From the NCBI GenBank assembly GCA_964036195.1, contig OZ038455.1, forward strand, positions 7,519,855 to 7,583,854: 64,000 nt of DNA, read 5' to 3'. Origin of the DNA: Sphaerolaimus hirsutus. Its lineage: Eukaryota > Nematoda > Chromadorea > Monhysterida > Sphaerolaimidae. Both the position numbers and the translations under genes were made by a program. Under the pieces are notes generated by a model. The model had not been told where the DNA came from. It saw nothing but the letters and a program-made list of their open reading frames with translations, and ran no database searches. Below, piece after piece: positions 3,001 to 61,682 of the stretch. Within the stretch, counting starts at the first letter, position 1; every line of letters begins with the position of its first letter.

Positions 3001-6000
3001 CCAGGTGAATTATTCAAGCAAATACAGTATTATTCTCGGTAGTGCAAAGTGTGCGATCAATCGAATAGAGATGCACACATATAAATCATATAAAAACACT
3101 GCACACACTAGATGCAATTCCTAACAGCATTAACAAAAAACTCAACGCACCCTGCTGCGGGACCACATAAATCAACTCGCTGAACCCGCAAAGAACAAGT
3201 TTCAACAATTCGGAGCGGTTGTGTTCGTGCGCGGCCGAAGAGGGCGGAGCTTGGGCGCAGCCAACACCGGGCGCCCAGATGTACTCGCAACTGTCCAATG
3301 AGGATAGATCTAGGGCGGTGTCCTGCGAGGATGGCAGAGTTACTTGAACTGGGTAAACGTGACATGGAAAATTCATTAATCAGGAGTGTAGATAAATATT
3401 TAGCAATTAGCAGAATTTTTCATTGTTTTTTTCACACATCCTGATGTATTTATTATTATTAATCCTACCCATCCAGCAGGAAAAAATCGCTGTGTGCAAC
3501 ACATAGGGATGGCAAGCGCTCTTTTTAAAGCGCTTTTTTTAAAAAAAAAACGCCGCTTTTTTAAAAAAAAAGCGCTAGGGTCCCAGCGCTTTTTTTAAAA
3601 AAAAGCGCTGGCAAAAATTTTTGTACTTATGCACTAGGTATTTTGCTATTTTTTGTGCGCAAGCGCAAAATTTCACATGCAAATTACTTCTGGTGGATGT
3701 TTTCATTGGTTTTGTGGCATTTTCAGTGTCATTGCTTCTATCGCTGCATGCTATCATGTAAAAAAAAGTTGTGATATGTTAGTGTAGTATAGAATATTCA
3801 GCCAATGTGCTCCCAAATACTTCAACAGTGGGGAACATTAGTCTCAATGTGTTAGCCTTCTCTTATAGCCTTATTTATAAGCACTATTTCATGCCTAACT
3901 TCACTCGGAAGTCATGAAACATTCACAAACTGCGATATACATAATGAGTCAACATAAAAAGTAATTTTTTGGCAGAAATCACCACTGATCATGTTATCCA
4001 ATGACTACACAGCCATTATATGGCTATATATCATTACAAGTACTGCCACTTGTCTGATATACCTGTATATATTGATACAGGACCATATTTGGGAGGTTTT
4101 TAGGGAAAGTCTCAACATTTTTTGAAAAAAAGCGAAAAAAGCGCGTTTTTTTAAAAAAAGCGCTTTTTTTAAAAAAAAAGCGGGGCCGTTAAAAAAGCGC
4201 TTTTTTCCATCCCTAGCAACACATATCGGGATTCGGGAAGACACATAAATCTTTTCCACAATGTAGATGTGCATTTACACCGTAAATACACACAGTATTT
4301 ACACTACAGTTCAATATGTTCGATTGCTTTGCAAAATCTGAAGTTTCGTCGCAAGCTAATTTCCGGGTCCCAATAAAAAATATCCAAAATCAAGGACGTA
4401 GCCAGGGGGGGGCGGGGGGGGCGGCCGCCCCCCCCCCTTCCCGGGCCGGACCAAAAAATGTGCCAGAAATGGCACTTTCAGACGACGATTTTGTCGACAG
4501 TTTGAAAAATTTTTGCGCGCAAGCGCGCATTCTCCCTTCACAACATATCTTTTTGGCTGACCAGTCTCCGCGGCCTCAAAGCCAGTGAAAATGGACTCAA
4601 TTTCTGTCCATGTCGCTGTATATGCCTGTAAAACACAGACGTATACTGCTGTTTTGGCGCCATGGCGTGGCGCCTACGAATGGCGCCAGCGCCATGGCGC
4701 CATTCCCCTACAACAGGGGTAAAATTTTAGGGGGGGGGCGCCGCCCCCCCCCGTTCGCCTGGCTCCGTATACAATCCGCCCCCCCCCGCTCAAAAATCCT
4801 GGCTACGTCCCTGTCCAAAATGTCACCCAAACGACCCCGAACTTACCGGTCCCTTTTTCAGCGATCCGACAGTGAATTCGGGACAAAACAGCAGATCACA
4901 CAAACTACCGAGAAGCGCCTTGGCCAGGGGCACGTCGCTAGTTGAGTGAGAGTTTTGTACACCCCTAGCGAGCGAAGCATTCTGGGTCAAATTGGGCGCG
5001 TCCGCGGGTAGGGCTGACCAAAAATAGCCGCGCCAATCGGCATCCTCGAAAATGTACGGCAGCAGGCGGGTTAGCAGACGGCAGCAGTTGAGAACTGAAA
5101 TTTTGAGGGAAAAACATTGCGCCATTTTTCTATCGCTCGAAACGGCAACCCCCAAAAGATCGATCAACTATCTATCTGTATGGAGCAGGGACGTACGCAG
5201 GGGGGGGGGGGCGGGGAGGGGCGGCCGCCCCCCCCCCCCCGTTCCCGGGCCGGACAGAAAAATTTGCCAGAAATGGCAATATCTGAGGCGATTTTGTGGG
5301 CACTAATAAGTTTTTGGCGCGCAAGCGCCCAAATAGGCGCCCCATTCTTTAATATGTATTTTCAGGTGTCAAATTGCATTACTCACGTGTCCAACAGTCC
5401 CAAAAGTGGTCTAGTACAACATATATAGCAAGGACGTATCCAGGGGGGGGCGGGGGGGGCTGCAGCCCCCCCCCCGTTCCCGGGTGAGACCGGACTAAAT
5501 CGAGGAAAATGCCGTTTTCGGTACTAATTTCCAAGGTGCTATGTAAAAATTTTGCGCATTTGTCCACCGTCCACAGGAATTATTGGAAAATCGGCACCTG
5601 TACCCTCAAATATCTGTTCAAATAGCGGTTCATGGCGCCAGCGCCAACGCCAATGGCGGCATGGCGTTGCGCCTACAAATGGCGCCAGCGCCATGGTGCC
5701 ATTCCGCCACTGTACAGGTAAAATTTTAAGGGGGGGGGGCTGAGCCCCCCCCCATTTGCCGGGCTCCGTAAACAAACAGCCCCCCCCCGCTCAAAAATCC
5801 TGGATACGTCCCTGATATATAGGTATAAATAGATACCTATATAGTAGACGTTTGCGCCAACACCAACGCCAATACTGCCATGGCGCTGGCGCCTACAAAT
5901 AGCGCCAGCGTCATGGCTCCATTCCTTTACTATAGGGCCAAATTTTAGGGGGGGGGGGCGCGCCGCCGCCCCCCCCCCGCTCAAAAATCCTGCGTACGTC

Positions 6001-8215: not shown

Positions 8216-11200
8216 ATGGCTAGAACTGGCTTTTTGAGATTTTGTGGTGGCTCACTCGCTGCTGCTTTCATTGGAACACTGTCTAAAACTGAAAAACAGA
8301 CAAACCACAAAAGCAAAAAGCAAAACCGGAGGAAAATAGGTTGGTTTTTTATTAAATTGTGTTTTTTTTGGCAATTTGCCTGATACATTGAAATTTCAGC
8401 GATAATTGGTGGTGGGGTTGGAGGAGCTTCATGTGCACATTTCCTGCGCAATTCAGAAAATTTTGACAAAAGGAATATTGATTTGGTCATGTTCGAAACT
8501 GACAAAGGTTGGTTATGCATGTTGCATTTATACAATTAAATATAATCTATGATTATGCATACAAGTTCATTTTTTGCAGACAAAATTGGTGGTCGCACAA
8601 GCCTTATCATGGTTGATGGAAGAAACTATGAGAGTGGAGGGAGTATTATCCACGACAAGAACAAATACATGAGTAATTTTGTCAAAATTTGTGGTCTGTT
8701 TGAAATATTGATGTGCAAACATATTTTAGATACTTTTTTTTTATTTGAGCACATACAGACATTATACATGCACATTATATGGTTCTATAGGCCACAAAAG
8801 AACATTCAGGTATGCAAAACAGTAAAGTTATGTGTTTGGTGAATCCAACAAGCCAACATCACTTTGTATGGTTGATGCCTACATGGTGAATTATGCTGAA
8901 GTATTTCAATTAGCTACTGATGTTAAACTAATGAGGATTCTAGAGTGGTTACATTTTCACCACATCAACCTTTTTGCTTGTTTACTAAAAGATACATACA
9001 TGTGTTGTCATTTGTTTGTATTCAACCAGGCCAAGTGACAGTCCACCATAGCGATTCACCACCGTTATGACATGTAGTACCAACGTGGTTACAACATTTC
9101 CACCAACTTGAAAACAACGTTCTGACAAAATTTTCAGCGTTGGGACAACATCGTCCCACAGCATGTAAATGCATGCTTTAATTGTGACGCGTAACGATGG
9201 CAAACCCTCCAAAAAAGTATTTAAATTTTTAAGTGTTTTTCCCAAATGAATTTTCGAATTTTTCCTGAAATTAATTTTTGAATTTCGAATTTAATTTTCG
9301 AATTTTTGGCAATTTTCGAATTTTTTTGGCCATTTTTCGAATTTTTTCAAATAATTTTCGATTTTTTTGGAAAAATATTGAATCTGAAGCTTTAAACACA
9401 GAATTTGGACTGTTTTGGAAGTGGCTATACTCAGCAGACGTGCTAATCTACAAATAGATATGATTAATATCTTTGGCTGGCAGACAGCCAACTGAAAACT
9501 TGTGAACTGATTCACCACTGCACTCCATTTCATCCTGACTCTGAACCAGTTCAGTCAGCCGTAAGTTCACTGCGGACTGCAGTTATGACGTCATGATGGA
9601 GTGTTACCACCATAAAATGTAGGGTGTAATTTCGCCCGAGTATAGCACACTGAGCGTACTCAGTGCATACAGTGGCAGTGCTAACTGCACGAAATATGGG
9701 TACTTCTCAAACCAATACTCAAAACCACTCTTATACTCCAGCGACATTACACCTACAATGAAATCTACCATAACCCATCTGAATAAAAGAACAAACAAAA
9801 ATTTTTTCATCATATTTATCAAAGCAATCTGATTAATATGATGACAAAATTTTATGTTTGTTCTTTCATTCAGATGGGATATGGTAGGTTTCATTATAAA
9901 GTGTAATGTCGCTGGAGTATATCTTTAATCACATCTCTTTTACTTATAAATATGTGCAGTCCCAGACACCTGTAAAATGCTCTGTGAAATGTCAAATGTT
10001 ATGCAAATTGTCTAAAGTCATGGAAATGCTGTGGAAAATGGCAAATATGTTTGCCATTTTACCAGGGCATTTTCATAACTTTTGACACTTTGCATGACAT
10101 TTCACATTTTACAGGGCAGTTTACATTTCAACGTTTTTGGACCTTTTTTCTGTTTTGTTTCGCTTTTTCATAAGCAGCGCGTACCAATTTTCGTTGTATT
10201 TAGTACGTTGAACTTAAGAGTGCCTTGAATTGCCTGAAAAATTCGAAAAGTATTTTCGAATTTTCGAATTTTTTGAAAAATAAATCGATTTTTAAGTGTT
10301 TTTTCTAGGGGTGAAATAAAAATTCGAAAATTCCGGAAAAATTCAAAAATTAGAAAATGTTTTCGAATTTTCGAATCTTTTTTTTGCCATCGTTAGTGAC
10401 GCGCACAAACCCAGCATTGAAACAACATTATGACACATCGAGACAACAGCGAAACAACGTGTTGACAATGCCTTGTCAACACATTGTTTCGCTGTTGGCA
10501 CTACATGTCATAACGTTGCTGAATCGCTGTGCACGTTCATCTGATCAGTACCGGGTTTTCTGTTTCAGGTCTGCAAAAACAAAAACATGATGATAACAGC
10601 TTGGGACTTTTTGATGGCAATGCTTTTGTGTTTCTAGGGAGTTCCTGGTCAATAATCACCTCGCTCAAATTATTATGGCAGTATGGGTTTGACATCTTCA
10701 GGCTAAAATGCTTAATAAATGATATGCTGAAAAAATTCTCAAAGTGAGTATGGTTTGCATTATAAATGTGTGCATTACCATTTTTCTTCCAAAAGAAGTG
10801 CAGGTCTCCAATATAGAGTCATCTTAAATAGAATGTAAACCAGAGTTGCGAAAGCGTATTTACGCTTACCCGAAATACCCGGGTAAATGGGTATTTATAC
10901 TTACGCTTACGCTTACGCTTTCATAAAATACCCGTACGCTTTATTACGCTTTCCCGGTTGAAATACCCGGTTACTAAAAGCGTAAAAAAGATTTTTCACA
11001 TGGTCCGGTTTTATGCTTTTGTAAAAAGTGTAAAACTACAAAAAAGTGAACTAAACTGCATAAAAAAAGACTGCATGTGTAAATACAGTAATGCATTGGA
11101 AATAACGGCACATTATTTTACAAATTGTGTCGCAATATGAATGTCTCCTTTATACTGTTTCGTCTGGCGAAATATTTAGATTGCTTTAAATGGCAATGGC

Positions 11201-14200
11201 TTCAGAATAGAAATTTTGTGACCGAAAATGCACGACATCCGAGTTCGAAAATGAAGATGACATAAGTGTATCTTACGTTTACGCTATACGTAGAAATGTG
11301 GAAAGTATTTATGAGAATTACCGTATTTCCTCGAAATACCTCCCCCCTTGAAATACCCCCCTCATTTGACCCCCCCCCCCTCTCGAGACCACTATGAAAC
11401 AATCACCCCCCCCCCCCTCGAAATACCCCCCCCAGATTGAGTGTAAAGAGAACGTACATGACAAATACTGCAGTTTGTGTTCTGCGTAGTGCAGAACACA
11501 CGTTAAAACAATGTTGTAATCACGTGTGAACAGTGTTTTTACCATCTAAGTACTAATATTAGTATACAGGAGTTGATACATGTCAGTTATTGATGCATTT
11601 TTCTACCCCAGCACACATCACAAACCACGATTTTGTACTAGGATTTCAAAAAATTTCCTGTGAAATAATAACCCCCCCCCCTCGAAATACCCCCCCCTCG
11701 TTTAACCCCCCCTCTCGGGAGCACTATGAAACAATCACCCCCCGGGGGGTATTTCGAGGAAATACGGTATGTATAAATACATCGCAAAAATCGACAACAA
11801 AAAGTCCGAGTTTGGAAAAGAATATTAATTAAATGGTGCTGTCGATTAAGTGCCATCAACATCTAAGGGCAGATTACCAAGTGGACATCTGAAAAATGTC
11901 GCTGAAAGCTTGATTTTGAACGAACTCACTGAGCAAAAACTCCCTGAAAATTTTTACGCTGACGCTTTATTTTACGCTTTCCTAGGTATTTAAAAAATAC
12001 CTTACGCTTTTAGTATCCACACTCAAAATTTGGAAAGTGTATTTACGCTTACGCTTACGCTTTCCAAAAATACCGGTATTTTGACAACTCTGATGTAAAC
12101 TTGATGGTATTTTTCAGCCATGAAATACAAAGGAGCTGGAATTGTGCCAAATGCAAAATAATAATAAAAAATGTCACCAAAGGCTGTTATTTAGTAATTT
12201 TGGTCAATTCACACATTGCTGTTTTAAGATCAAATGTTGAAGCAGTTGTATGAATCATTGTTTGTATTGGCACTCAGTGAATACTGTTAAGTAGCTGTTT
12301 GTAAAACTATGGCAGAATGTGAAAAAAATAGGTGGAAAAATGGGGCAGTTAAATTAATGTTCACAAAAAGAATTGAAAGTGCCTGTACTATTAGAGGAAA
12401 TATGGTAAAGCATTATTCAGTGAAATATTAATTGATGGTGTCATACTTGTGCAGTATTTATGTGCTCCAGGACCAAGGTATGACATTTTTAAATACCTCT
12501 GAAATGGCTGATGGAATATCAAAGGAATTTCCACCATTGCTATACAAGACACTAGCTGACCATTTGAGAAAGAAAGGATTTTCTGAGAAATTCATTCATG
12601 AATTGGCATCTGCTATTGTTACAGTCAATTATGGGCAGGATGTAGAGAAAGTTTGTTTTTTTAAATTTTGAAATTGTCTGTGATTTCTGTGTTTGGTCTG
12701 TGATTTCCCACTATTAACAAAATTATCAACAATAATGTGAACACAAGGATGTAGCCAAGGGGGCGGTATCCCCCCCTGGGTGTCCCGGGCTGGACAAAAG
12801 ATATGCTAGAAAATGCACTTCCGTAAAGTGATTTTGTCAGCAGTGTGCAAAAATTTTGGTTTTCCACATTTCCCCACCCATACGATATATCTTATTAATT
12901 TTTGATGTTTAAGGATTTAAAAAATCTGATTTTAATTTGAAAAGAGCAATTTAACAAAAAATTGATTGTTTAAAAAAATCAAGGCATTTAAAAAATTGAT
13001 TTTTTTTCCCAACTGTAGCATTGACGCCTACAAATGGTACCAGTGCCATGACCATATCCCGTAATCTAGGGCAAAATATTAGGGGGGGGGGTGCACTCAA
13101 ACATCCTGGCTATGTCCCTGTGTGTGTGATTTATAACGAAAAATCTCTCATTACTGCAATGTCAGAATGTTTTCTAGACTCATACCAGCCAGTTCTTATC
13201 CACACTAAATCCATTGTGATTTGTAGCAGTCATGGGTAGCACATATAAATAGTTTACTTTGAACACCCTGCAGGTTCATGCCTTTGCTGGTTCTGTAGGT
13301 TTGGCTGGTGCAGGGGGTGAACTTTTCTCTGTACATGGTGGAAATTGCAAGGTCTCTGAGAAGTTGATAGACATGAGTGGAGCTGAGATGCATTTGTGAG
13401 TTTGCTTGTTGTATTATATAATATTGATTGACATTGACAGTCGCATGCCTATCATATGATTTTAGAAATTACATAAAATACAGTGAGGTTGCATTCCACA
13501 CTTTCCTTTTTGTACCCTGAAATATCATCACTTATCATTCTAGTATAATTTTCCATACTACACTATGTATCATGCAGCGAGCGTGTCCAAGCCATTATCA
13601 GGCACAATGATGGTACATTTTCAATAGAAACAGAAGACTCTAATACCAATCCAAGACAGGTAAAATATCTTTATATGACAATAACATTTTCAATTCATTT
13701 TTGGTGTGTCATTGATGTCTTGTTATCTATGCCCAGCATCAAGGCTTCTCTGCTGTCATAATTGCTGCACCACAACCAGCTAATGACCCTGAAAAGTGTA
13801 TTTCACTTAGAAATGTACCTGGCCTGGCAAGCAATTCAATTTACCTTCCAATGCACAAGTTGACATCAAACTTTGTGCAGGGCAGCATTAAGGCTCATTT
13901 CTGGAATATTACTGATAGAACTCTCCCAAATGGTGGGTTACCTGATGTGATATTATAATCAACTGAATTGTAAAGTGTTTGTTCACTGAAATCTACCAAA
14001 ATAACCACCAACATTGTGCAGAAATTCTCATGACTCATCCTTCATGGTATAATTCTGCATCACAGTGTACACCAGTTGATTCTGAAAAGCTCTCAACAGA
14101 AACAGGTGCTAAATCTGTGTGGAAAATATTCTCACCAAAACCTATTGACAAGTATAAAGTTGATGACATGTTTGGACACAACTATTCATCTCATTATGTG

Positions 14201-15776: not shown

Positions 15777-16337
15777 ACAGACAATTTAAATAATGCAGTT
15801 GTTAACACAGAACAAGGGACAAGTGAACAATGCATTGTTTTGAGTAAAGGTATTTGTGTTATTGTGTCTGTCTATGTGCCATTCAGGCATGTGTCCATAG
15901 TTGGTAAATGTACTGAACTCTTTCAAAGTAAACATAAATGAAGTATTTTATTTTTACTCACGGTTGAGTACAGAAAATGTACATTTATTGTTTGGAGGAT
16001 ACATAAATGTATTTATTCGGTACTTGAGTATAGGTATGTATTTTTCGAGTTCACGCAAATATGTTTTAACAACTATGCATGTCTCTTCAAGCTGCAAATT
16101 TGTGCATTGTCAAACCCTTACAATAACATACTGTCCCGACGAGCAATGTTTTTGCCAAGTTGGGCATATTAATTTGTCGCATCTCACTGCACTTAGACAA
16201 CAGGACATTCTGTCATGGACGAGCGCTAAGCAGCACTTTATTGGCCATGATAGGTATTTTGTTTGAGAGTGTCAGAGCTTGAATTATCTTGACATGTTTT
16301 TGTATTTAAAAATAAATACAGCTGTTCCATTGAAATA

Positions 16338-17251: not shown

Positions 17252-20200
17252 ATGGATAACAAACCAATACTAATGGAACCTATTCTACTAAAAATATGTT
17301 TGATCAGTGTATTGTTTTGTCAAGTTGCAAATTGCGCTGATTACTGTCCAATTATAGATGAATGTAAGGAGTCTGCACCGAATTGCGACGGCTGTACAAG
17401 GTCATACAGTGAGAATGCAAGAAATCGGGAGTGAGATCATTTTATATTTAGTAAAAATGTTAAAAATAGTGTGAAGCTGTTAAGCCGGAATTAGAGCTCA
17501 GCGTCGATTCGACGCAAAATGACGACGTAAAATCAATTACACGAGTGTGGATCATGCTACGGGTCTACAATTTTCTAAGGATAATAGATGAATCAATACC
17601 TTAATCGTGTCCATTACTGAGTGTTATCAGCCACAACTAGAGCGAATTGAAAAATTCAATTTTTATCATTTCACGTCATCATTTTACGTCAGGGAACTAA
17701 CTTTACATTTCACGTCAACGGTTGCTTGCAATCGTTGACGTGAAATGTCAAATTTGTTCCCTGACGTAAAATGATGATAAAAATTGAATTTTTCAATTCG
17801 CTCTAGTTGTGGCTGATAACACTCAGTATTGGACACGATTAAGGTATTGATTCATATATTATCCTTAGAAAATTGTAGACCCGTAGCATGATCCACACTC
17901 GTGTAATTAATTTCACGACGTCATTTCACGTCGTCATTTCACGTCGAATCGACGCTGAGCTCTAATTCCGGCTTTAGGGGAACACCACAAGTGCCCACAC
18001 TGAAAGCAAGACGAGAAGGTGGAAAGAAGCAGTCACTTGATACAAGTGCAGTCTGCACTTTGGGGTTGGGATTTGGCACTTTGGAGCCCCTGATCTGCTG
18101 GCACTTTTGTGGCACCATTCATGTCATTAGCAGGGTTGGCAAAATCTCAGAAAATAGAAAAAAATAAAATAAAAATAATATGAAAAATTGAATAATAAAA
18201 TAAAATAAAATCAAATGGAAAATTAATCAAATAAATATACAATTTTACTAAAATTCGAATTTTTGTAAAATTTTTACTAAAATTTGAATGTTTGTAAAAT
18301 TCTATATAAATTTAACAAGTTTCTATCCTGTTTCTTCAGTTCCTATCTGTCAATTTGATTAACTGGTGCGTGGTTGTTGCTTTCATTGTTGTGATCGAAA
18401 AACATTTTTGCTCAAAATATTTGCTTATAATAGAAAATTTTTACACCTTTTTATATATTCTCACCTTCAAAAATCACTAGTTCATGTGATGTTATCACCT
18501 TTTGTTCATTGCATACCTTGAAAAAGCCTATATATTGAACGCTGGGAGGTGGGAACCCCCCCCCCCCCAAAAAAAAAACAACAACAACAAAAAACAACAA
18601 CAACAAACAATAATTTTTCAGCTATCTTTCCCTTCAGAGGAGCAATTTGCTATCTATCCAGTCCCCACAAAGGTCAAAATTCAAAATATTTACCTGTGTT
18701 GCAACCCATATCACAAGTCCATATGTTCAAATTTTTCATATTCACCTGCATGCCTCTAGCCTGCACATTGTTTTATGTCCTTACAAGCAAGATTCTGATT
18801 TTTTGTAAAAATTTTGTACAATTATTGTAAAAAATTTGTAAAATATTAAATTTTATATTAATATTGCCATTTTGGAATAAAACGAAACATGAATAAAATT
18901 ATAAAAAATACAATTTGAGTATAAAGAATTTTACTAAAACCAACCCTGGTCATTAGCAGGGTTGGCAAAATCTCAGAAAAAAATAAAAATAAAATAAAAA
19001 TAAAATGGAATATTCAAGAATAAAATAAAATAAAATAAAATGGAAAATTTAAGAATAAAAATAAAAATTGTATAAAAATTCGAATTTTTGTAAAATTGTA
19101 TAAAAATTTGTATTTTTGTAAAATTGTATAAAAATTCATATTTTTTTGGTAAAATTTTATCTTGTTGCTTGAGTTTCTACCTGTTTATTCATGTATCTGG
19201 GAGCAGTCCCAAGTGTAAAGTGTCAAATGTCATGTAAAATGTCATGCAAAGTGTCAATTGTCATGACAAATGTAAGGTAAAGTGTAAATTGTCATGACAT
19301 GTAAAAAATAAAGTATCAATTGTCAAGCAACTTGTGTCCAAATCTTATGTTTTATATCTAAATTTTATGTTTTGTATCCAACTTATGTTGTTGTTGAATC
19401 CAAATCTTATGTGAACATTTGGAAAAACATAAACAATAACATAAGATTTGGATACAAAACATACTATGGTTACAAAAACACAAGATTTGGATACACAATT
19501 TACACTTTGCATGACATTTGTCATGACAATTGCCACTTTGCTTGAAATTTGACATGACACTTGACATTTTGCATGACAATTGACACTTTACTTTACATTT
19601 GTCATGACAATTGACAAATTGCATTACATTTTACAAATGTGCCCATCACACTCCACTAGTCCTTCTACTGAAAGTGCAAACCATTCTTATCAATAATTGC
19701 AACTTTACACTTGCAGCTAGCTAACAATACATACTGCATGCAACTTTTGAAAAGTAAGGGAAAAATTTGTCACAGTTTTTTTATGTATAGGTCTGATTAT
19801 AACATTTTTTGGCCTTGCATGCATGATTCTGATTTTTTGTAAATTTTTTGTACAATTTTTGTAAATTTTTTGTAAAATGTGTCATTTTATTTTATTAATG
19901 ACTTTTGGGAATAAAATAAAATAAAATAAAATGAAACAAGAATAAAATAAAAATAAAATAAAATTTTTATACAATTTTTATACAATTTTACTAAAATGAA
20001 TTTTTATAAAACCAACCCTGGTCATTAGTGCCACTGCCTACTATTATACTTATGCCCATGCCAATGCCAATGCCTACTAATGGTATCAGTTCTAGCACAA
20101 TTCTATTTCTCTGTAGGTAAAATTTTAGGAGGGCTCCCTTTGGCACTTGTGTTTTTGTTTGTAACCAAATGGCATATCCGACCCAAAAACCCTGGACATG

Positions 20201-23200
20201 TTCCCCCTGAGGGCACTCCCATCCCAGAAGAAAATGGCAAACGTGTTAGCCATTTTGCAGGGCATTTTCCATGACTTTTGACACTTTGCATGCCATTTTA
20301 CATTTTACAGGGCTTTTTACATTGTCTGGGAGTAGCACCTACCTAACTTGGTGCCCTTTTCTGTGATGCCCTTTGGCGCATGCTGCACATTCCTAATTGC
20401 ATCATACCGTATTTCCTGGAAATACCCCCCCCTCGAAATACCCCCCTCGTTTGACCCCCCCTCTCGAGACCACTATGAAACAATCACCCCCCCTCGAAAT
20501 ACCCCCCCAAATTGAGTGTAAAGAGAACGTACATGACAAATACTGCAGTTTGTGTTCTGCGTAGTGCAGAACACACGTTAAAACAATGTCGGAATCACGT
20601 TAGAACAGTGTTTATACCATCTACCGTATTACCTCGAAATACCCCCCGGGGGGTGATTGTTTCATAGTGGTCCCGAGAGGGGGGGAGGGGTATTTCGAGG
20701 GGGGGGGGGTTATTATTTCACAAGAAATTTTTTGAAAACCACGTACGAAATTGTCGTCTGAAACGTACGCAGACGTCGAAAAATGCAACAAAAACTGCCA
20801 TTTATAAGGTTCTGTAGACTAATATTAGTATGTAGATGGTGTGTCACTGTTCTAACGTGACACCGACATTGTTTTAACGTGTGTTCTGCAGAGTTGCGAA
20901 AGCGTATTTACGCTTACCCGAAATACCCGGGTAAATGGGTATTTATACTTACGCTTACGCTTACGCTTTCATAAAATACCTGTACGCTTTATTACGCTTT
21001 CCCGGCCGAAATACCCGGGTACAAAAAGCGTAAAAAAGTTTTTCACATGGTCCAGTTTTATGCTTTTGTAAAAAGTGTAAAAATACAAAAAAGAAAGTGA
21101 ACGAAACTGTATACCAAAAAAATGACTGCATGTGTGCAGTAATGCACTGGAAATCGTGGCACATGTACAAATTGTGTCGCAATATGAATGTCACTTTTAT
21201 ACTGTGTCCTCGGGCAAAATATTTAGATGGCTTTAGAATAGAAATTTTGTGGCCGAAAATGCACGACGTCCGAGTTCGAAAATGAAGATGACATAAGTAC
21301 ACATGTAGTATGTCTTACGTCTACGCTATTAGAAGAAATATGGTAAGTATTTATGAGAATTAGGTAGGTATAAATACATCGCAAAAATCGACAGCACAAA
21401 GTCCGAGTTCGGAAATGAAGATTAATTAACTGTCGCTGTCGATTAATTGCTATCAACATCTAAGGGCAGACTACCAAGTAGACATCCGAAAAATGTCGCT
21501 GAAAGCTTAATTTTTGAACAAATTCACTGAGCAAAAACTCCCTGAAATTTTTTTACGCTTACGCTTTATTTTACGCTTTCCTAGGTATTTAAGAAATAGC
21601 TTACGCTTTCAGTATCCACACTCAAAATTTGGAAAGTGTATTTACGCTTACGCTTACGCTTTCCAAAAATACCAGTATTTTAACAACTCTGGTGTTCTGC
21701 AGTACACAGAACACAAACTACAGTTATTGTCATGTACGTTCCCTTTACACTCAATTTGGGGGGGGGGTATTTCGAGGGGGGGGGGTAATTGTTGCATAGT
21801 GGTCCCGAGAGGGGGGGGGGTCAAACGAGGGGGGGGGGGTATTTCAAGGGGGGGTATTTCGAGGAAATACGGTACGTATTAATATTAGTCTACAGGAGTC
21901 TTTACATGTCAGTTATTGATGCATTTTTCTCGCGGATTTCTCCCCAGCGCACATCACAAACAACGATTTTGTACTAGGATTTCAAAAAAGTTCTTGCAAA
22001 ATAATAACACCCCCCTCGAAATACCCCCCCCTCGTTTAACCCCCCCCCCCCCCCACCCTCTCGGGAGCACTATGAAACAATCACCCCCGGGGGGGGGGTA
22101 TTACGGGAAATACGGTAATCGATTTTTGTCTGAAAATACAAATACTGTATTACCTCGAAATACCCCCAGGAGGTTTATTATTTCGCCAGCAAAATTTGAG
22201 GGGGGGATAATTCGAGGGGGGCGGGTTTATTCGAAGGGGGAGTCTATTATTTCGCCATAAATTTTTGGAAATTCCCCATACGCAGACGTAGAAAAATCGA
22301 ACAATCACATAGATTTATATGTGTTTATAGGCATATATTACTGTATATACACAAAAACCTTCCCTAACGTCACTTAATCATCAGTTTTAACGTGTGTTCC
22401 GCATAGTACAGATCACAAACTGCGGTATTTGTCATGTACGTTCACGTTACACTCAATTTTAGGGGGGGTATTTCGAGGGGGGGTTTATTATTTCCTCAGC
22501 CGAAATTTAGGGGGGGTATTTCGCGGGGGGTGGGTTAATTCAAGGGGGGATAATTCGAGGTAATACGGTACAATTTTTATCTGAATTGTACAAATTTTTA
22601 ACGGTTCATCGGATAGTTATCTGATGTAAATATATGCAAAAGGATTTGATGCATGTGCGCCTTGTTCTAGACTGCCACAATGTTAAAAGACTATATTCTA
22701 CTTTGGGATGGAAGTTGTGACATTTGGCAATTTGAAATTCGATTTTACATTCATTTAATAACATGACATTTCAGCATCTGTGCTGAAAATGACCATTGTG
22801 GATGTGACTGCAATAATCACTGTGACTGTGATGGTAAAACGTGCGGCAGCTGGCCTTGGAATGACGGGTATTGTGAAAATTGCGATTGCAGAAAGAAAAT
22901 TGTGACCCAGAAGTGTCGGTGGGTGATTTTACAGAACTAAAATTGTTGTTTCCTGTATGTAAAGTCACAGTATAGGGTGGCACACGTCAGGCGCCCGGTT
23001 TCAATTGGCACCCAACACGTCAATTTTGAATGAAACCTGCTCAAATTTGGTATGGTGGTAGATAAATGTACCCCATTTGTTTTGTTAAGTGTACAGTTCC
23101 ACACCACAAATGTTCATGTCAGAACGTGAAGCATACCTAGTTTGATATTTACGTAGTGATGTAAAAGCGCCATGGCGCTGGCGCCTGGCGCTAGCGCCAA

Positions 23201-26200
23201 ACCAAAAAGCGCCATGGCGCTTTTTGCCGTGGCGCTATTGGCGCTTGGCGCCGAGACCTCCAAAAGCGCCATGGCGCTTTTGGCGCTTGGCGCTATAATG
23301 CCGTGGCGCCATTGGCGCTTGGCGCTCACAGTTTAAAAAGCGCCAAAAAAGGGCCATACCATCTGTGTACGTTTTCGATAGGTGGCATCAAAAATGCCAT
23401 CAACATATGAGATGATTGCTTTTTTGTTCCATCCAATTCTTCCATCACCTAACACTTGTGGTCCACACATCCAAATTTCATTGATATAAATATAAATAGC
23501 ACAACTTCACTTGCTTCACTAAGCTACTGAAACTTTCTGCATTCAGAAAAAAACTACCTATATAAATAGCATGCTGAATGTACACTTTACAATCTACCTA
23601 ACTATCATCTCACATTTATTATTCAGACAATCCGTTGAATAAGACTCACTGAATAACTCCCCTTGTTGACCAAGTGATAAAAAATACACCCTTGAATAAC
23701 TCCCCCATCTGGGTATTTGATATGTACATATATCCATCAATGATTTACATTCCGATGAAGACAAATTTTTGCATGGATACCTTGTTTTTGTTGTCGTTGA
23801 ACTATCAAATACCCGGATTACATGAGTTTAGGGAATGCATTCATACAATGAATAACGTGCAAGTTCCGAGGGAAAAAACTCATCCTAGAATAGCACCTTG
23901 AAAACATTACTCCCCTAGGGTCTTATTTGAGGATATACTATACGGTACTTGCATTCACTGTGAGTAAATGTTTTGCACAAATTTTTAGGCAGCTTCATTC
24001 ATAAAGTAGAGGAACAGCTTTGTGTATTTGGCATCCAGATACTGATGTACATGGCTAATTAAAAATCGACCATGAAATGTTTGGCGCTGGCGCTATTGGC
24101 GCTTGGCGCTATAGTCCTCTGGCGCCATGACACATTCAAAAAACGTAAATATGAAACTCTTTCACGTTCTGACACAAACTTTGCGATATGAAAACCGTGC
24201 ACTTAACACAACAAATGGGGTACATTTATTTACCCCCACACCAAATTCGAGCGGTTTTCATTCAAAATTGATGTGTTGGGGGCCAATCAAAGCCGTGCGC
24301 CTGACGTGGGCCACCCGGTATTTCAAAAAAGGTAAATGTATTTACCCAGTACCCAAGTAACTACCGTATTTCCTCGAAATACCCCCCCCCCCCTTGAAAT
24401 ACCCCCCCCCCCCCACGTTTGACCCCCCCCCTCTCGAGACCACTATGAAACAATCACCCCCCCCCTCGAAAATACCCCCCCCCCCCAAATTGAGTGTAAA
24501 GGGAACGTACATGACAATAACTGTAGTTGTGTTCAGTGTACTGCAGAACACACGTTAAAAACAATGTCGGTGTCACGTTAGAACAGTGTACATACCATCT
24601 ACATACTAATATTAGTCTACAGAACCTTATAAATGGCGGATTTTGTTGCATTTTTCGACGTCTGCGTACGTTTCAGACGACAATTTCGTACTTGGTTTTC
24701 AAAAATTTTCTTGTGAAACAATCACCACCCCCCCCCCCCTCGAAATACCCCCCCCCCTCGTTTAACCACCCCCCCCCCCCCTCTCAGGGACCACTATGAA
24801 ACAATCACCCCCCCGGGGGGTATTTCGAGGAAATACGGTATATGTATTTTGAGTATTTTTAAACACATTTTAACATATGTGCAGAATGGCGCCATGGCGC
24901 CTCTATATAGCTAATACTGTGTAAAATATACTGTCCGCTCAGTATAGATAGTGAGGACCAGGGTTGGTTTTATAAAAATTCATTTTAGTAAAATTGTATA
25001 AAAATTGTATAAAAATTTTATTTTATTTTTATTTTATTCTTGTTTCATTTTATTTTATTTTATTTTATTCCCAAAAGTCATTAATAAAATAAAATGACAC
25101 ATTTTACAAAAATTTTACAAAAATTGTACAAAAATTTTACAAAAAATCAGAAACATGCATGCAAGGCCAGAGAAATGTTATAATTAGACCTATACATGAA
25201 AAACCTGTGGCAAATTTTTCCCTTTCTTTTCAAAAGTTGCATGCAGTATGTATTGTTAGCTAGCTGCAAGTGTAAAGTTACAATTATTGATAAGAATGGT
25301 TTGCATTTTCAGTAGAAGGACTACTGGAGTGTGCTTGGCACATTTGTAAAATGTCATGCAAAGTGTCAATTGTCATGACAAATGTAAAGTAAAGTATCAA
25401 TTGTCATGCAAAATGTCAAGTGTCATGTAAAATTTCAAGCACAGTGGCAATTGTCATGACAAATGTCATGCAAAGTGTAAATTGTGTATCGAAATCTTGT
25501 GTTTTTGTATCCATAGTATGTTTTATATCCAAATCTTATGTTTTTGTATCCAAATGTTCACATAAGATTTGGAGTCAACAACAACATAATTTGGATACAA
25601 AACATAAGATTTCGAAATAAAACATGAGATTTGAACACAATTTGCTTGACAATTGATACTTTAATTTTTACATGTCATGACAATTTACACTTTACTTTAC
25701 ATTTGTCATGACAATTGACACTTTGCATGACATTTTACATGACATTTGACATTTTACAATGCTTGGGACTGCCCCCAGATCCATGAATAAACAGGTAGAG
25801 ACTCAAGCAATGAGACAAAATTTTACAAAAAATATGAATTTTTATACAATTTTACAAAAATACGAATTTTTATACAATTTTACAAAAATTTTACAAAAAT
25901 TCGAATTTTTATACAATTTTTATTTTTATTCTTAAATTTTCCATTTTATTTTATTTTATTTTATTCTTGAATATTCCATTTTATTTTTATTTTATTTTTA
26001 TTTTTTTCTGAGATTTTGCCAACCCTGGTGAGGACACACGTCCAAGTTCCCATTTTCATCACAAACAGTTAGCTGATAAGTCTAACGATGGCAAACAATC
26101 GAAAAAAAGTATTTAAATTTTCAAGTGTTTTTTAAAATGAATTTTCGAATTTTCGAATTTTTCTCCAAAATAATTTTCGAATTTCGAATTTTCGAATCTT

Positions 26201-41041: not shown

Positions 41042-41894
41042 CATGGTTGGTTTTAGTAAAATTATTTTTACTAAAATTGTATTTTATTTTTATTAAAATT
41101 GTATTTTATTTTTATTTTATTCATGTTTCATTTTTTTATATTTTATTTTATTCTGAAATGTCATTAATAAAATAAAATGAAACCATTTTGACAAAAATTT
41201 TACAAAAATTTTACAAAAATTTTACAAAAAATCTTAGATGCAAAGCCATAAAACAATATGCACGCTAGAAGCATGCAGATGAATACAAAAAAATTTAGTG
41301 TATACTTGTGTGTGACACGGGTGGTGACGTAGGTATCTTGAATTTTGACCGTCACAGGGGCCAGATAGATATGTAGCTAATTGCTCCTCCCGAGGGAAAA
41401 ATAGTCAAAAATTTGTTATTTTGGGGGGAGGTGGGTGGGTATGGGGGCTTGCAGGTTCAATATATGGACTTTTTCAAGGTATGGAACAAAGAAAATAGGA
41501 AGAAAATTACATAAATTAGTGATTTTTAAGGTGACAATATATTAAAAGATGTGAAAATTTTCAATTTTGAGCAAAAATATTTTTCATTCACAACACTGAA
41601 AGGAACAACAAGGCCCCTGTACTGCAAATTGGCAGCTAGAAACTTAAGCAACATGATATAAAACTTTGTTTAGAATTTTACAGGCACTCGAGTTTTCGTA
41701 AAATTTTACTAAAATTTAACAAAAATACAAATTTTTGTACAATTTTACAAATTTTTTTACAAAAATTCGAATTTTAGTAAAATTGTATTTTTATTTTATT
41801 AATTTTCCATTTTATTTTATTTTATTTTATTCTTCAATTTTCTGTTTTATTTTTATTTTATTTTTGTTTTTTTTCTGAGATTTTGCCAACCCTG
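41042..41894. mobile_element. hAT-like element, AAATAAAATA word family (copy 4)
   Basis: Ends CATGGTTGGTTTTAG and GATTTTGCCAACCCTG. Perfect duplications TCCATGAC at 41034-41041 and 41895-41902. Confidence 0.88.
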
Positions 41895-43678: not shown

Positions 43679-44138
43679 CAGAGTTGTTAAAACTAGCGAA
43701 ACTTTTTTCAAAGTATACGTAAACGTAAAGTATTTATTTTTTACTCACCCCTTGAGTACAGAAAACATAAAGTAAACACATTTTAGTAAAGAGATATTAG
43801 TAAACGCAGTAAAGAGAAATTTCGCTTAAAATTAGCTATTTTCATCACTTTTTGCCTATTTTACGCAATTTTTGACTATATTTTTGGTTCTATCCCCATT
43901 TTTGTCTAGTTTCATCATGTATTTTTAGCTAATTTTCTCCGTTTTTCCCTTGTATGCCTTTAAAAACCTATATAAAAGGCTCTATATAAATCTAAAATAC
44001 TCGAGTACTTTCAAAACGTATACGTAAAAGCGAGTACCAGAACTTTTTTCGGAAGAAACGTAAACGTACCTATTTACTCTGTACTCGAGTATACGTATTT
44101 ATCGAGTAAAAGTAAATACGTTTTAACAACTAGGTATG
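43679..44138. mobile_element. hAT-like element, ACTCGAGTA word family (copy 3)
   Basis: Starts CAGAGTTGTTAAAAC; the right end TTTTAACAACTAGGTATG looks like the usual end with four extra bases. Perfect duplications CATTTAGG at 43671-43678 and 44139-44146. Confidence 0.78.
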
Positions 44139-54115: not shown

Positions 54116-54489
54116 ATATGCAAATAGATTAGTTTTGTTGTATCAAAATTACAATTTGTTTGTACACTTGTTTTGAGATTGGAAATTTTGATCAGCATGT
54201 GTAAAATGGATAAATAATTTCAAAATCAGCAGATCGAAATTTTTATTTGTAAAAAATATATATATCTTACATGTGCAAATCAAATTTTTTTTTCAATTTT
54301 CATTTTACATGTGCAAAATGAAATTTCAATTTGCTAAAAAATGTCTATTTGCACATAAATTATATTTTTATTATATTTTAATTGAAATTCAAAATGTCGA
54401 GTAAAAGACATTTAATATGATAAGTAAAACAATGATGTGATCTTTTTTGATTTTGACGCTATTTTCTGTGATCTTTGCTGTTAAAAGTA

Positions 54490-56495: not shown

Positions 56496-57669
56496 TAGTG
56501 ATGTAAAAGCGCCATGGCGCTGGTGCCTGGCGCTAGCGCCAAAGCAAAAAGCGCCATGGCGCTTTTGGCGCTTGGCGCTTTTTTGCTGTGGCGCCATTGG
56601 CGCTTGGCGCTGTGCTACGGAAAAGCGCCATGGCGCTTTTGGCGCTTGGCGCTATGATGCCGTGGCGCCATTAGCGCTTGGCGCTAGCGTTTTAGAAAGC
56701 GCCAAAAAAGCGCCAAGAGGTTAATAAAAAATATACCATTATTTTATGTAAAAACACCTTGTGTGCATAATATACGTAAGTAAATGTGTTACTGTCAGCG
56801 TATTCCAGGAAGAACAAACCCTCCACTTGCTTATTTTGTGAACCATGTCCATGCAATTGCAAGGATATTCAAAACTTTTCCCAAATAATGGGCCTAATGG
56901 TTCCCATCCCAATTCAAAGCTTGCTCACGAGCCGACAAGCGATGTTCAAATGCATAGTGTTGCATCATGTTGAAAATGAAGTTGTATTGTTGGTATGTTA
57001 ATGTGCAATGTACCAGGCCGGCATGAAGTATATGTGTATACAACACTGGGTAGTGTTACTCCTTAGCAAGCTCTGAATTGGGATGGGAACCAGTTGACAC
57101 TGGCTGTCATTGTCAACCAATGTGTGTAGGGCCAATCGGACCAATACTACACACAGAAGATGAATGTAGACACTGTGAATTGGGAGGGGGGTGAGCCGGC
57201 CGATAGAGGGCGCAGCCGCGCAAGTGACCCGGCCATAATACAGTCAGACACACAAAAATCAGAAATGTTAAAATGATAAACGAATTTTACAATATCCATT
57301 AAAATCTAAGCACTTTTTGTCGAGATGGCTTGCCATTGTTAACCCGAATTCTCTGCAGTAAAAAGAACATCACAAAAAGATGAAAACATGACTCAATTAG
57401 ACGTAATCTTGCATCTTACACAAATAAATAGCACTGCATTAGCATGGCTGCACTCTATGAGCAGCAAAATTTTTGGCGCTGGCGCTATCGGCGCTTGGCG
57501 CCAACATCCTCTGGCGCCATTGGCGCTTGGCGCCATGTTCTAGAAAAGCGCCATGGCGCTTTTGGCGCTTGGCGCTATTTTTCTGTGGCGCCATTGGCGC
57601 TTGGCGCTCGCATGCCAAAAGCGCCATGGCGCTTTTGGCGCCAAAAGTCTGGCGCTTTTTACATCACTA
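56496..57669. mobile_element. hAT-like element, GGCGCC word family (copy 3)
   Basis: Ends TAGTGATGTAAAAGCGCC and GCGCTTTTTACATCACTA. Perfect duplications GTCATGAG at 56488-56495 and 57670-57677. The centre contains an inverted pair (GGTTCCCATCCCAATTCA near 56897, reversed near 57070) and a Cys-rich exon-like stretch (56809-56992). Confidence 0.9.
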
Positions 57670-57677
57670 GTCATGAG

Positions 57678-57966
57678 TAGTGATGTAAACAGCGCCAGAA
57701 CTTTGGTGCCAAGCGCCAAAAGCGCCATGGCGCTTTTCCAACCCCTAGCGCCAAGCGCCAATGGCGCCAGAGCAAAATGGCGCCAAGCGCCAGAAGCGCC
57801 ATGGCGCTTTTTGTTTTTGCGCTAATGCCAAGCGCCAGCGCCAGGCATTTTGTTCCTGGCGCCGGTCAAAAATAGCGCGAAGCGCCAAAAGCGCCATGGC
57901 GCTTTTCATGGGTATAGCGCCAAGCGCCAATGGCGCCACAGCAAAATAGCGCCAAGCGCCAGAAGC
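57678..57966. mobile_element. GGCGCC word element, truncated on the right
   Basis: Begins TAGTGATGTAAACAGCGCC directly after the second GTCATGAG, with dense GGCGCC words. No TACATCACTA end or third GTCATGAG is found before 58250. Confidence 0.75.
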
Positions 57967-58703
57967 GTGAATAATACCATAAAAAATAGTGAAAACGTTC
58001 CATAATTCCGGAATAAAGTTCCGTATTATATCTGCAAAGAAAGGCAGTAAAGTGTGCTCACTAGCGTAAATACACACATGCCAATTGCAGATAATTTGAG
58101 CCTGTCATTCAAGATTTACCTATATGCATTTTGAAACTAATTTCAGTTGTCGGTCGGTTCGGTTTTTGTTTTGAAACCAAATTGACAACAGAAATTCGTT
58201 TTCAAATTTGAATGACATGCACGAATTATCTGCAAATTGGCATGTGTGTACACTCAACCAGAGTTGCGAAAGCATATTTACGCTTACCCGAAATACCCGG
58301 GTAAATGGGTATTTATACTTACGCTTGCGCTTACGCTTTCATAAAATACCCGTACGCTTTATTACGCTTTCCCGGCCAATTTACCCGGATACTAAAAGCG
58401 TAAAAAACTTTTCACACCGTCCAGTTTTACGCTTTTGAAAAAGCGTAAAACTACAAAAACGAAAATGAACGACAACGCGTACCAAAAAAATGACCGCGTG
58501 TGTGCAGTAAAACACTGAAAATAGCGGCACATGTACAATTAGTGTCGAAATACAAATGTGTGGTAAAAATTGTATCACTTTGCAATATCGTGGCTTCAGA
58601 TTAGGAATTTTGGGGGTGCAAATGGATTCCGACAACGATGTTGTCGCCATCGACAGCACCAACTCCGAGGTACAAGGTGAGAAGGAATTGAGTGTTGTTG
58701 TAG

Positions 58704-59532
58704 CAGAGTTGGAAAAACGTATTTACGTTTACCCGAAATACCCGGTTATTCGGGTATTTATACTTACGTTTACGTCTACGTTTTCCAAAAATACCATTAC
58801 GTTTTGTTACGTTTTCCTGGCACAATTACCCGGGTACCAGAGAAAACGTAAAAATCCAGCTACACGAAACCACGCGTCTGTGAAATGTGCTCTATTACCG
58901 CATTCACATTGATTTTGTGTAAATAGTTCTACCACTGGACCTAAATAATGCCAATTATGTTGTGTAATTGTCTTTTTGACCGTGAAAATATTGTAAATAA
59001 GTGCAATCAATCAATTGTAAATGTATTCAATGTGTCAATTTTGGAATATGAACAGTGTCTAGGAATGTGTTACCTATAAATACAAGTAGAAAAGTGGAAT
59101 GTGTGTATGTATTTCTGTTGTGGAATTTACAATCATTCACTGTTTTGTTTTATTCATATCCTGCTGAAGTTTTGCAGTAATGGAATTTTTGATGAATAAG
59201 TGTGCTAATCCATGTGCTAAACTGCGAGGCCATCAGCACCAACATTCGTAAACAAATAGACACAAATTTAAATATTTTTTTTTTGCTATGAATGTGAGTG
59301 AAAAATATGGATAGAAATTATGTATACATTGTTGAAAATGTCACAACAATGGTATTTTCAGAAGCTCAGCTCATATGGGGCACTTCTTGAAATTTTTACG
59401 TTTACATTTTTTTTACGTATTCCTTGGTATTTTAAAAATACCTTACGTTTTAGTATTTATACTTTAGATTTGGAAAAGGTATTTACGTTTACGTTTACGT
59501 TTTCCAAAAATACCAGTATTTGTACAACTCTG
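58704..59532. mobile_element. hAT-like element, TACGTTT word family
   Basis: Starts CAGAGTTGGAAAAACG and ends CAACTCTG. Perfect duplications TGTTGTAG at 58696-58703 and 59533-59540. It has the same ends as the TACGCTT elements, but the word is ACGTTT / AAACGT at both ends. Confidence 0.92.
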
Positions 59533-60124
59533 TGTTGTAGTCACACTACATGACACACTATTCTATACTCTCTTCCTTACTTCTACTCTGTATTCAATTC
59601 TAAGTAGGTTTTGAGTGATTGGTCTGAACCGTTAACTTTTATGTTTCAACCAATCTTGAGTAGTGACCACTTGGGTGTTTAGGTCAGTTGATGTACATTG
59701 ACTCATTTTCCCTCATCATTCATGTCCCCTTCGGGGGGTGACCATCTATGAATATGAGATGCTAAAACTTTGAGACCCGTGTCGCCGAGCGACGTTACCC
59801 ACAAACACAACCACATAACATCTCAAACGCAAATATCCTCCGGTTGGTGGCTTCGTGGACTTGGCTTCGCCTCTTGCCCAAGGTCCACATGCCAATCCAG
59901 CTGAAACTCACTGCACGTTTCTCATCTGTGCGCCACGGACTCGGTACGCAGTCAGCCCCATTTCCCGTGTGCACAACATGGTGATCGTACTGGCTTGAAA
60001 CTTCTCAAGCCTATGTGAACCCGCCTGCCCCCGACTGTCCAACAATGACATCGGTGGCACCCCAATCGAACCTGCGGCAGCAACTGCCAGCAAGAGCAGC
60101 CTCCGCCGCGCGCCACAAGAGCGC

Positions 60125-60634
60125 ATGCATGACACAAAAGATGTCAAATGCAAAAACCCTGGCCGTCAAAGCAGCAACTGGGTACAGAGGCAAACAGGTC
60201 AGCGGCCCAACATAGACATTGACAGCCTAACCCCAGCCATTAAGCAGCGACACCAGGAACTGAGGCATACAGGTCGGCCGTCAAGCAACGACACCGACAG
60301 CCTAACCATCCCAGCTGTCAAGCAGCAACACTGGGAACCCTCACCAGCATACCAGATGTCAATCAGTGACACTGGTCAATTAAAAACACCACTTTGGCCA
60401 TTAATCAGCAATGCCAGGACCCAAGCATACCCTGAATGTCAATCAGTGACACCAGCAGAACTACCCACCCAAACACCCACCAACCTATGTCAATGCACAA
60501 GTATCCAATACACACCTGAAACAGTCCACCTACATGAAGTCCAAAATAAGGCAGTAGACAGTTTTCCTGCAGAAGACACCACTATCCGGCCTGCCACCTC
60601 CAACCAGTACACCAGATCACCGAGTACCATGTAA
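60125..60634 (+). CDS. Open frame of unknown meaning inside the non-autonomous LTR element
   Basis: 169 codons, rich in Thr, Ser, Pro and Gln, with loosely repeated segments (AIKQRHQEL, AVKQQHWEP). I recognise no Gag, zinc knuckle or enzyme motif. It may be a chance frame in a repetitive internal region. Confidence 0.25.
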   Translation: MHDTKDVKCKNPGRQSSNWVQRQTGQRPNIDIDSLTPAIKQRHQELRHTGRPSSNDTDSLTIPAVKQQHWEPSPAYQMSISDTGQLKTPLWPLISNARTQAYPECQSVTPAELPTQTPTNLCQCTSIQYTPETVHLHEVQNKAVDSFPAEDTTIRPATSNQYTRSPSTM

Positions 60635-61682
60635 TCCAGATCAGACACACAACCCATTCAACATACCAGCCAAGCAGCAAACATCCACTGCACCAGATAC
60701 GGAATTCAATGGGCAGAAGAACCACTAGAAGAAATTCAAGAAATACTCCAACTCCAAGGCTAGGTGATAATTGACAATTGTGATTTTTATATCATTAATA
60801 TGGTAATGTTTAGCGTTTTTATAATTGGTGTTGTTTGTTGTGATTTTGATTATTGGGTTTTCTGTCAGTTCCCCCTGTAGGGTGAACTTGGGGGGGGGGA
60901 CTGTTGTAGTCACACTACATGACACACTATTCTATACTCTCTTCCTTACTTCTACTCTGTATTCAATTCTAAGTAGGTTTTGAGTGATTGGTCTGAACCG
61001 TTAACTTTTATGTTTCAACCAATCTTGAGTAGTGACCACTTGGGTGTTTAGGTCAGTTGATGTACATTGACTCATTTTCCCTCATCATTCATGTCCCCTT
61101 CGGGGGGTGACCATCTATGAATATGAGATGCTAAAACTTTGAGACCCGTGTCGCCGAGCGACGTTACCCACAAACACAACCACATAACATCTCAAACGCA
61201 AATATCCTCCGGTTGGTGGCTTCGTGGACTTGGCTTCGCCTCTTGCCCAAGGTCCACATGCCAATCCAGCTGAAACTCACTGCACGTTTCTCATCTGTGC
61301 GCCACGGACTCAGTACGCAGTCAGCCCCCGTTTCCCGTGTGCACAACAGTGTCGCTGTCCATAAGTTGCCATCTACATCAAAGAGCAGACTACCAAGTGG
61401 AAAAATGTCGCTGAGAGCGTGATTGTGAAAGTATTCGATTTACAAAAATGAACAGAATCTGTGATGCATTGATCTAAATGTGAAAGCAAGGGTATTTTCC
61501 GATGCTCAATAGCAAGAGTGCTCTCTCAAAAAATTTTTACGCTTACGCTTTTTTTACGCTTTCCTAGGTATTTTAAAAATACCTTACGCTTACAGTATCC
61601 ATACTCAAAATTTGGAAAGTGTATTTACGCTTACGCTTACGCTTTCCAAAAATACCGGTATTTTAACAACTCTGCACTCAAC

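Follow-up and report, generated by a model that had tools for sequence, protein, structure and literature searches.

In-place switching of subterminal words among sister families of hAT-like transposons in the nematode Sphaerolaimus hirsutus

The Locus and Its Elements

The stretch of DNA considered here (the window; 64,000 nucleotides of contig OZ038455.1 of Sphaerolaimus hirsutus, assembly GCA_964036195.1) carries many transposable elements flanked by 8-bp target duplications, in which one family-specific word recurs up to ~15 times per element within the outer ~200 bp (Table 1; elements are named by family letter and start position, so that E20889 is the family E element starting at 20889). 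Three states of such a word, AAACGT (family F), AAGCGT (family E) and AAGTGT (T), were found on one and the same end skeleton; the word has been switched in place and in concert at its scattered sites, leaving largely clean lineages.

The 17 element starts listed in the original prediction as bearing 8-bp target duplications are all correct, 15 being exact and two (28766 and 29409) having one mismatch. A script closed 16 of them (14 exact, two with one mismatch); a 4-bp insertion close to the right tip hid the element at 43679 from the script, and this element was closed by eye, ending at 44138. The real flanks gave 15 exact rows, made up of 14 elements and the span 18131-20020 taken as a whole, and four rows with one mismatch, of which one is spurious. 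When the flanks were displaced as a control, with the start/end pairs kept and tip similarity not required, 20 trials produced a single exact match (0.05 per trial) and 14 matches having no more than one mismatch (0.7 per trial); given this control rate, the one-mismatch elements therefore rest on their tips too. Beyond the predicted list, the window holds G15896-16077, the A-type ends at 23154 and 57678 and the D-type end at 26083.

The end consensus shared by the whole hAT superfamily is YARNG, and on the short terminal inverted repeats of the window 15 of the 17 starts fit it, the exceptions being 28766 (CATAG) and 41042 (CATGG); a single lineage, which had been deduced from the common ends, does not follow from tips that match only a hAT-wide consensus and in two cases deviate from it. 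The hAT target preference is nTnnnnAn; among 17 distinct duplications (G15896 counted, GTCATTAG taken once), T is found at the second base in 9, A at the seventh in 10, and both in 7. The outer bases of the duplications are mostly G or C across families (base 1 in 14/17, base 8 in 16/17). The window elements are best explained as cut-and-paste transposons of the hAT superfamily, most of them short and lacking a gene. The C-terminal dimerisation domain PF05699 has no match inside the window at E 0.001, and a hAT-like tblastn match at 9087-9146 (E 0.006) was discarded, its translation indicating chance. Exact pattern searches, with three patterns in viral contigs and one in genome contigs, returned no match.

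Two same-family tandem pairs (18131-20020 and 56496-57907) have just one copy of the target duplication in common, as though the second member had been inserted at the edge of the first. Inside E58259 lies a direct repeat pair (59533-59978 and 60902-61348, 99.3% identical), probably the long terminal repeats (LTRs) of a short retroelement; F58704 follows the first 8 bp in one member of this 447-bp pair and so probably moved recently.

Table 1. Elements, element ends and a word pair of the window, with their target duplications; word counts are given as left 200 bp/middle/right 200 bp.
Feature	Position	Strand	Ends and word	Target duplication	Remarks
Family C element	3504..4215		ends TAGGGATGGMAA; word GCGCTTTT	GCAACACA, exact	AAGCGC words at ends
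Family D element	9192..10395		ends TAACGATGGCAAA; word CGAATTTT	GTGACGCG, exact	words 4/0/5
Family E element	10841..12092	+	AAGCGT (TACGCTT)	ATGTAAAC, exact	words 8 left, 6 right
Head-to-head word pair, E left end	10852..10867				element bp 12-27, centre 19.5
Family G mini element	15896..16077			one mismatch	tips alike
Family H element	18131..18948	-	AAATAAAA	GTCATTAG, exact	tandem with 18957 element
Family H element	18957..20020	-		exact	shares one GTCATTAG copy with 18131 neighbour; words 8/0/7
Family E element	20889..21691	+	AAGCGT	GTGTTCTG, exact	TACGCTT 8/0/7
Family A end	23154..23383	+			aligned with A ends; within longer inverted repeat 22975-24316
Family H element	24959..26027	+		GTGAGGAC, exact	
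Family D left end	26083..26314				85.7% to 9192-9416; other end not found
Family A element	27065..28199	+	GCGCC (GGCGCC)	CTCTTGAG, exact	74-bp tandem modules
Family G element	28766..29284	+	AAACGT, AAAGTA, TACTC	one mismatch	
Family G element	29409..30784	-		one mismatch	contains B29792
Family B element	29792..30727	-	GCACC (GGCACC)	CTCAGTAC, exact	GGCACC 13/2/11; 75-bp tandem module
Family A element	32829..34104	-		GGTGGGGG, exact	GGCGCT 13/2/15
Family H element	41042..41894	+		TCCATGAC, exact	
Family G element	43679..44138	-		CATTTAGG, exact by reading	4-bp insertion near right tip
Family A element	56496..57669	+		GTCATGAG, exact	
Second family A end	57678..57907	+			abuts target duplication of 56496 element
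Family E element	58259..61674	+		CACTCAAC, exact	interrupted by LTR-like repeat pair holding F58704
Family F element	58704..59532	+	AAACGT (TACGTTT)	TGTTGTAG, exact	sister of E; TACGTTT 7/0/5

Subterminal Words

Two of the predicted properties of the words were borne out, namely that a short word crowds both ends, own words being concentrated in the outer ~200 bp with nearly none in the middles (Table 1), and that one word per family is kept at homologous places. In families A and E the word positions are 3.6-7 times less variable than the interspersed sequence, the words being defined in one copy and scored in the others with pooled counts that overlap (an earlier count based on consensus-defined words was biased towards conservation). 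Word positions of family H (AAATAAAA), which is of low complexity, vary 1.6-2 times less than the rest, and the ACTCGAGTA family (G) displays a weaker pattern with mixed words.

The symmetry of the words at the two ends, on the other hand, had been wrongly predicted, since they run mostly in one direction along the element. The majority direction accounts for 13 of 15 words in E20889, 10 of 12 in F, 9 of 11 in G28766, 14 of 15 in H18957 and 20 of 26 in B29792, with weaker polarity in A32829 (14/21) and D9192 (8/12); G, A and D are singly not significant, and the families are not all independent, E being homologous to F and A to B, so that the combined P exaggerates the independence of the counts. 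In the left-type ends of A, E and F, and less perfectly of G, words one and two are set head to head about bp 19.5; such a pair near bp 19 with polar words beyond it was not seen in the D and H ends. Of 16 representative family ends, 6 have a palindrome (7 of 8 arm bases) whose centre lies 17-20 bp inside the tip, compared to an average of 0.7 and a maximum of 3 over 47 control windows and an average of 0.17 in shuffles; two of the six (E right and the CAGAG end of G) are built from sequence other than the main word of the family. Helical phasing of the words was considered and rejected, as only family A shows it well, and the 74-bp modules of that family lack independence.

Word Switching on a Shared Skeleton

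When the ends of the three E copies and the single F copy of the window are aligned, AAGC in E faces AAAC in F at all 15 of 15 word sites, in support of the proposed swappable word; the remaining word bases differ at 3/75 positions and the skeleton at 35/204, and the same kind of transition is seen at 9/66 other G/C sites. The stronger proposal, that the ends are constant and the families differ only in their word, is not supported, far more than the word differing between families: E and F are alike only near their ends, and among the pairs compared an alignable skeleton was found only for A/B and for E/F/T, with G as a more distant relative.

The third state, AAGTGT, occupies 8/8 left and 7/7 right E-skeleton sites of an element at L018 4533-5304 (L numbers denote genomic stretches fetched) and 7/8 left sites in L022; in the same alignment as L018, six E copies carry AAGCGT at 44/48 left sites. 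Family G, which lies at a distance of 0.41-0.53 from both E and F, where its alignment with them is uncertain, shares the base of F in 15/16 left-end and 11/17 right-end cells by our reading of that alignment, and reads TACTC where E and F read TACCC. Rooting with G would suggest, with moderate confidence, the order AAACGT, AAGCGT, AAGTGT, one letter per step. A left end at L010 4660 with mostly AAACGT and TACTC words combines F-type and G-type features.

A second pair of families, A (GCGCC) and B (GCACC), which have 74/75-bp modules in common, behaves similarly to the E/F/T switch. With the A word put into B, and two of the four A copies tried per end, the left end of B matches the other end of A (z 4.6 and 5.4) and its right end the palindrome end of A (z 3.9 and 4.2), with crosswise z of 0.5-2.3, although in one comparison of B right with the A palindrome end the best of 300 shuffles scored one point above the real alignment. 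Once the word patterns of A are aligned to B, the own word of B stands in 10-14 of 18-24 overlapping patterns, many of the remaining non-matching patterns being overlaps or misalignments; the 217-bp ends of B contain no A word, and A copies contain 0 or 1 B words in the same ends. Elsewhere, TAGGGTTCAAACG tips are accompanied by ATCCCG or ATATCG words (L013 7651-8241, L018 8619-9039, L019 1259-2021, L020 1388-2121), which are perhaps another switched pair.

Both switches bear on the possibility that mutational bias, in the form of CpG decay or deamination, made the switched words. A CpG is in fact lost from AAGCGT to AAGTGT as well as from GCGCC to GCACC; decay should, however, yield AAGTGT and AAGCAT alike, and the L018 element has 15 AAGTGT and no AAGCAT, while G as outgroup makes the step to E a change from A to G (15/16 left, 11/17 right), opposite to deamination. 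Such a bias is hardly credible as the origin of the words.

Purity of the Word States in the Genome

Across the 348.5-Mb assembly containing the window, the STR1-STR2 motif TTGNNAAARYGTATTTACRYTTACCC has 2126 + 2150 = 4276 exact matches, and the reversed control none. The first 100 matches listed, all on one contig and therefore a non-random sample, comprise 40 AC/AC, 27 GT/GT, 25 GC/GC, 8 mixed and no AT/AT pairs (the letters being the third and fourth of each half-site); in 92 of these 100 the half-sites match, with 33.6 expected if they were independent. The first 40 were fetched and, four mixed copies and all gaps being set aside, the 36 others were sorted by their two half-sites and scored at the remaining ones. 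Held-out left sites agree with this sorting in 72/74 cases for AAGTGT, 60/68 for AAGCGT and 49/66 for AAACGT, and right sites, in the 25 copies whose right end was found, in 42/44, 67/69 and 42/48 cases, respectively. Agreement thus reaches 332 of 369 scored sites; only 6 of the 37 misses show another of the three states, and 11 lie at left site eight of the AC copies, which an indel has probably shifted. The other sites of the four mixed copies are mainly GC.

The left-end skeletons group by word state. With the word columns removed from the left ends, 35 of 36 copies have a nearest neighbour of their own word state; in the corresponding tree, whose bootstrap had not settled and in which one AC row (L052) is long, AAGTGT forms one clade (99/96), GC and AC do not form single clades, and three label changes suffice compared with a shuffled mean of 17.4. 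Mean skeleton distances are 0.18 for AC-GC and 0.17 for GC-GT.

Such purity might also result if the words were homogenised with no selection for binding, one mutated word being spread inside an element by gene conversion or repair slippage and having no fixed reader. The word tracts are partly tandem (6-bp TACGCTT runs, 74-bp modules) and there are zero half-switched copies among the 40, both of which would suit this explanation; yet the switched sites are scattered, in either orientation and at both ends, and the intervening bases have retained differences of their own; the words, moreover, are restricted to the ends, with a mostly polar arrangement. We regard homogenisation as quite unlikely.

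Transposase Exons

At E 0.001 the genome has 28 matches to PF05699, 22 of which were fetched in 20 stretches. The dimerisation exon lies inside word-bearing elements with target duplications of F type (L012, L015) and D type (L020, L021, L023, L024), inside a G-like element of 6 kb, one end of which is rich in GCGTAC (L011), in a family marked by AAACGG (I; L009, L010, L014, L026-L028, and L013 with one mismatch in the duplication) and in one marked by TATCGA (J; L017 and L018, each with one mismatch); in L019 it stands behind an F-like right end, and L016 and L025 have no convincing element around it. The exon within the B-type span of L028 was rejected as a B exon, as it belongs to a nested family I element, and that of L022 probably likewise. 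Among the 22 matches fetched, none was found for families A, B, C, E and H. A duplication scan of the 20 stretches listed 47 pairs, some spurious or overlapping, and further words (ATCCCG, ACCCGA, CGGTAC).

In local alignments the exons are 59% identical between F and G (L012), 34-39% between F and D, 45-48% between G and D, 36-57% between I and J and 32-43% between I and F; rather than unrelated transposases, which would have spoken against the original prediction, related ones were found wherever we looked, in the word-bearing F, D, G-like, I and J elements. Because the hAT dimerisation exons within five word types are related and AAACGG is the site of the Ac transposase, the words are very probably transposase sites.

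The F exon itself has at least 149 genome matches (150 of 274 candidates scored). Nine of the 12 fetched have a right end nearby, five F-like (four CAGTGTTG and one decayed CAGTCTTG, with AAACGT or a decayed form of it), one of CAGAGTTG F type and three L011-like; the other three have no clear right end, and for a 76%-identical exon at C4:3057309 none was found within 2.5 kb downstream. AAGCGT and AAGTGT make up 52 of the first 100 copies listed, though transposase exons were found only with other words. It may be asked, then, whether a single transposase of loose specificity moves all three states, these merely marking amplified founder copies: in the fetched sample AAACGT-type copies do hold a transposase and AAGCGT/AAGTGT elements were found with none, but it would still have to be explained how a founder came to have almost every site changed when there are no intermediates, and copies of each state keep their word. 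This possibility appears unlikely.

The BED finger is less well represented. In L011 two exons, separated by an intron and joined by us, score 25.3 bits against the Pfam cut-off of 20.6; PF02892 has 8 matches in the genome, 7 of them in one cluster, and a search with the L011 finger gave 9, including L011 itself, L083, L084 and L085. No hAT end was found at L083 and L084; in L085 a BED-like exon follows a left end of the form CAGTGTTG that bears AAACGT words, and neither the second BED exon nor a right end was found there. In these searches no BED finger was found for families other than those of L011 and L085.

Comparison with Known Systems

In Hermes, a hAT element of the house fly, the published account (PMC10368747) describes 8-bp duplications, many short sites at both ends and a BED-bound STR1/STR2 quasi-palindrome, a head-to-head pair within bp 11-27 of the left end (LE), beyond which the left-end sites are antisense and the right-end sites sense, sense being inward from each tip; the duplications and the many short sites recur here, the head-to-head pair with polar words beyond it is seen in the left-type ends of A, E and F and less perfectly of G, and the Hermes site AAG(T/C) resembles the first four letters of AAGTGT and AAGCGT. 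The present families differ from Hermes in their longer words, in the spacing of the half-sites, in the more than a dozen word types of the stretches read and in having sister families with nearly every word switched.

Family I has tips of the form TAGGGTGTCAA; those of maize Ac are reportedly TAGGGATGAAA, which is unlike them. AAACGG, which is the word of no window family and is present in family I elsewhere in the genome, is also the hexamer repeated within ~200 bp in Ac/Ds, which differs in that Ac has one word (PMC3260210). Kat1 of Kluyveromyces is likewise a hAT transposase with a BED finger and repeats of a hexamer, AATTCA, resembling the family D core AATTCG, although it is a single domesticated system (PMC4763223).

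The VANDAL/VANC elements of Arabidopsis offer a different parallel, a repeated short motif that co-evolves with a trans protein and differs by a letter or two; its role, however, is anti-silencing and the motifs evolve by tandem repeats, not by in-place switching in conserved ends (PMC5735166, PMC10398659). The 8-bp duplications and hAT exons found here argue against membership of that group. The words might nonetheless bind some other trans factor and co-evolve with it, be it an element-encoded anti-silencing protein like VANC or a host protein: the short motifs targeted by VANC also vary from one related element to another and change in concert, but they are found in introns and in intergenic and terminal non-coding sequence and evolve via tandem repeats (PMC5735166), while the present words lie in the ends, for some families in a constant register relative to the tip, and one of them is the Ac transposase hexamer. 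Such a factor is decidedly unlikely.

Proposed Mechanism

The preferred interpretation is that the word would be a subterminal site read by the N-terminal BED finger of the transposase, the tips being cut by a shared catalytic core; each switch would follow a changed preference of the finger, and elements matching the new finger at many sites would have been moved and amplified, giving rise to families that ignore each other. We put the probability of this reading, in which BED reads the hAT words and switches follow finger changes that we infer, giving mutually deaf families, at roughly 0.6. BED is the best candidate reader because the AAG(T/C) of Hermes is bound by BED and the Ac site is AAACGG. 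S66, N67 and R70 are base-reading positions of the Hermes finger, R70 touching the G of AAG(T/C); by analogy, the switched bases, third and fourth of AA[AG][CT]GT, may correspond to those where Hermes has G and T/C. That a lineage splits into mutually deaf families by re-keying, a one-letter change of the BED target being followed in place at ~15 scattered sites of both ends, with neither tandem amplification nor surviving intermediates, and repeatedly along the ladder AAACGT, AAGCGT, AAGTGT, seems to us evenly balanced.

Several observations weigh against BED-driven switching. In Hermes, isolated AAGC is reported to be bound only weakly and mutations of inner left-end sites leave ~70% activity (PMC10368747), and not every word, therefore, need be bound. 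The F copies are less pure, with exact AAACGT at 29/40 left and 21/28 right sites and one AAGCGT; for families C, D and H no sister carrying another word was found; and the 40 fetched copies include none that is half-switched and could show how scattered sites change jointly. Elements of the AAGCGT and AAGTGT states yielded no transposase exon among the 22 of 28 PF05699 matches and 12 of 149 F-exon relatives fetched, and only L011 has both BED and dimerisation exons, so that no two differently worded fingers can be compared.

The joint change of a DNA-binding protein and its numerous sites is a long-standing puzzle that concerns transposons and transcription factors alike. Here one skeleton, matched thousands of times, exists in three word states, and the distances between skeletons allow an order to be read; this makes the question testable, and the families might supply a natural set of orthogonal transposase/end pairs. 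A literature survey, mostly below full-text level, disclosed no recognised report of in-place word switching among hAT sister families.

Other Features of the Window

Besides the hAT-like elements, the window contains an open frame of a Ty3/Gypsy-like polyprotein (46177-52938, minus strand, 2253 aa), with at most 41% identity to its nearest relatives among the matches listed; neither its gag part nor its residues 160-700 have relatives at E 0.001. Two tandem arrays were also observed, one of 8 copies of a 142-bp unit (54485-55636) and one of 10 copies of a 44-bp unit (53691-54124). A Sushi-repeat exon and a possible membrane-protein exon at 35490-40273 perhaps belong to an animal receptor-like gene, and a Hid1/Dymeclin exon is located at 6324-6689.

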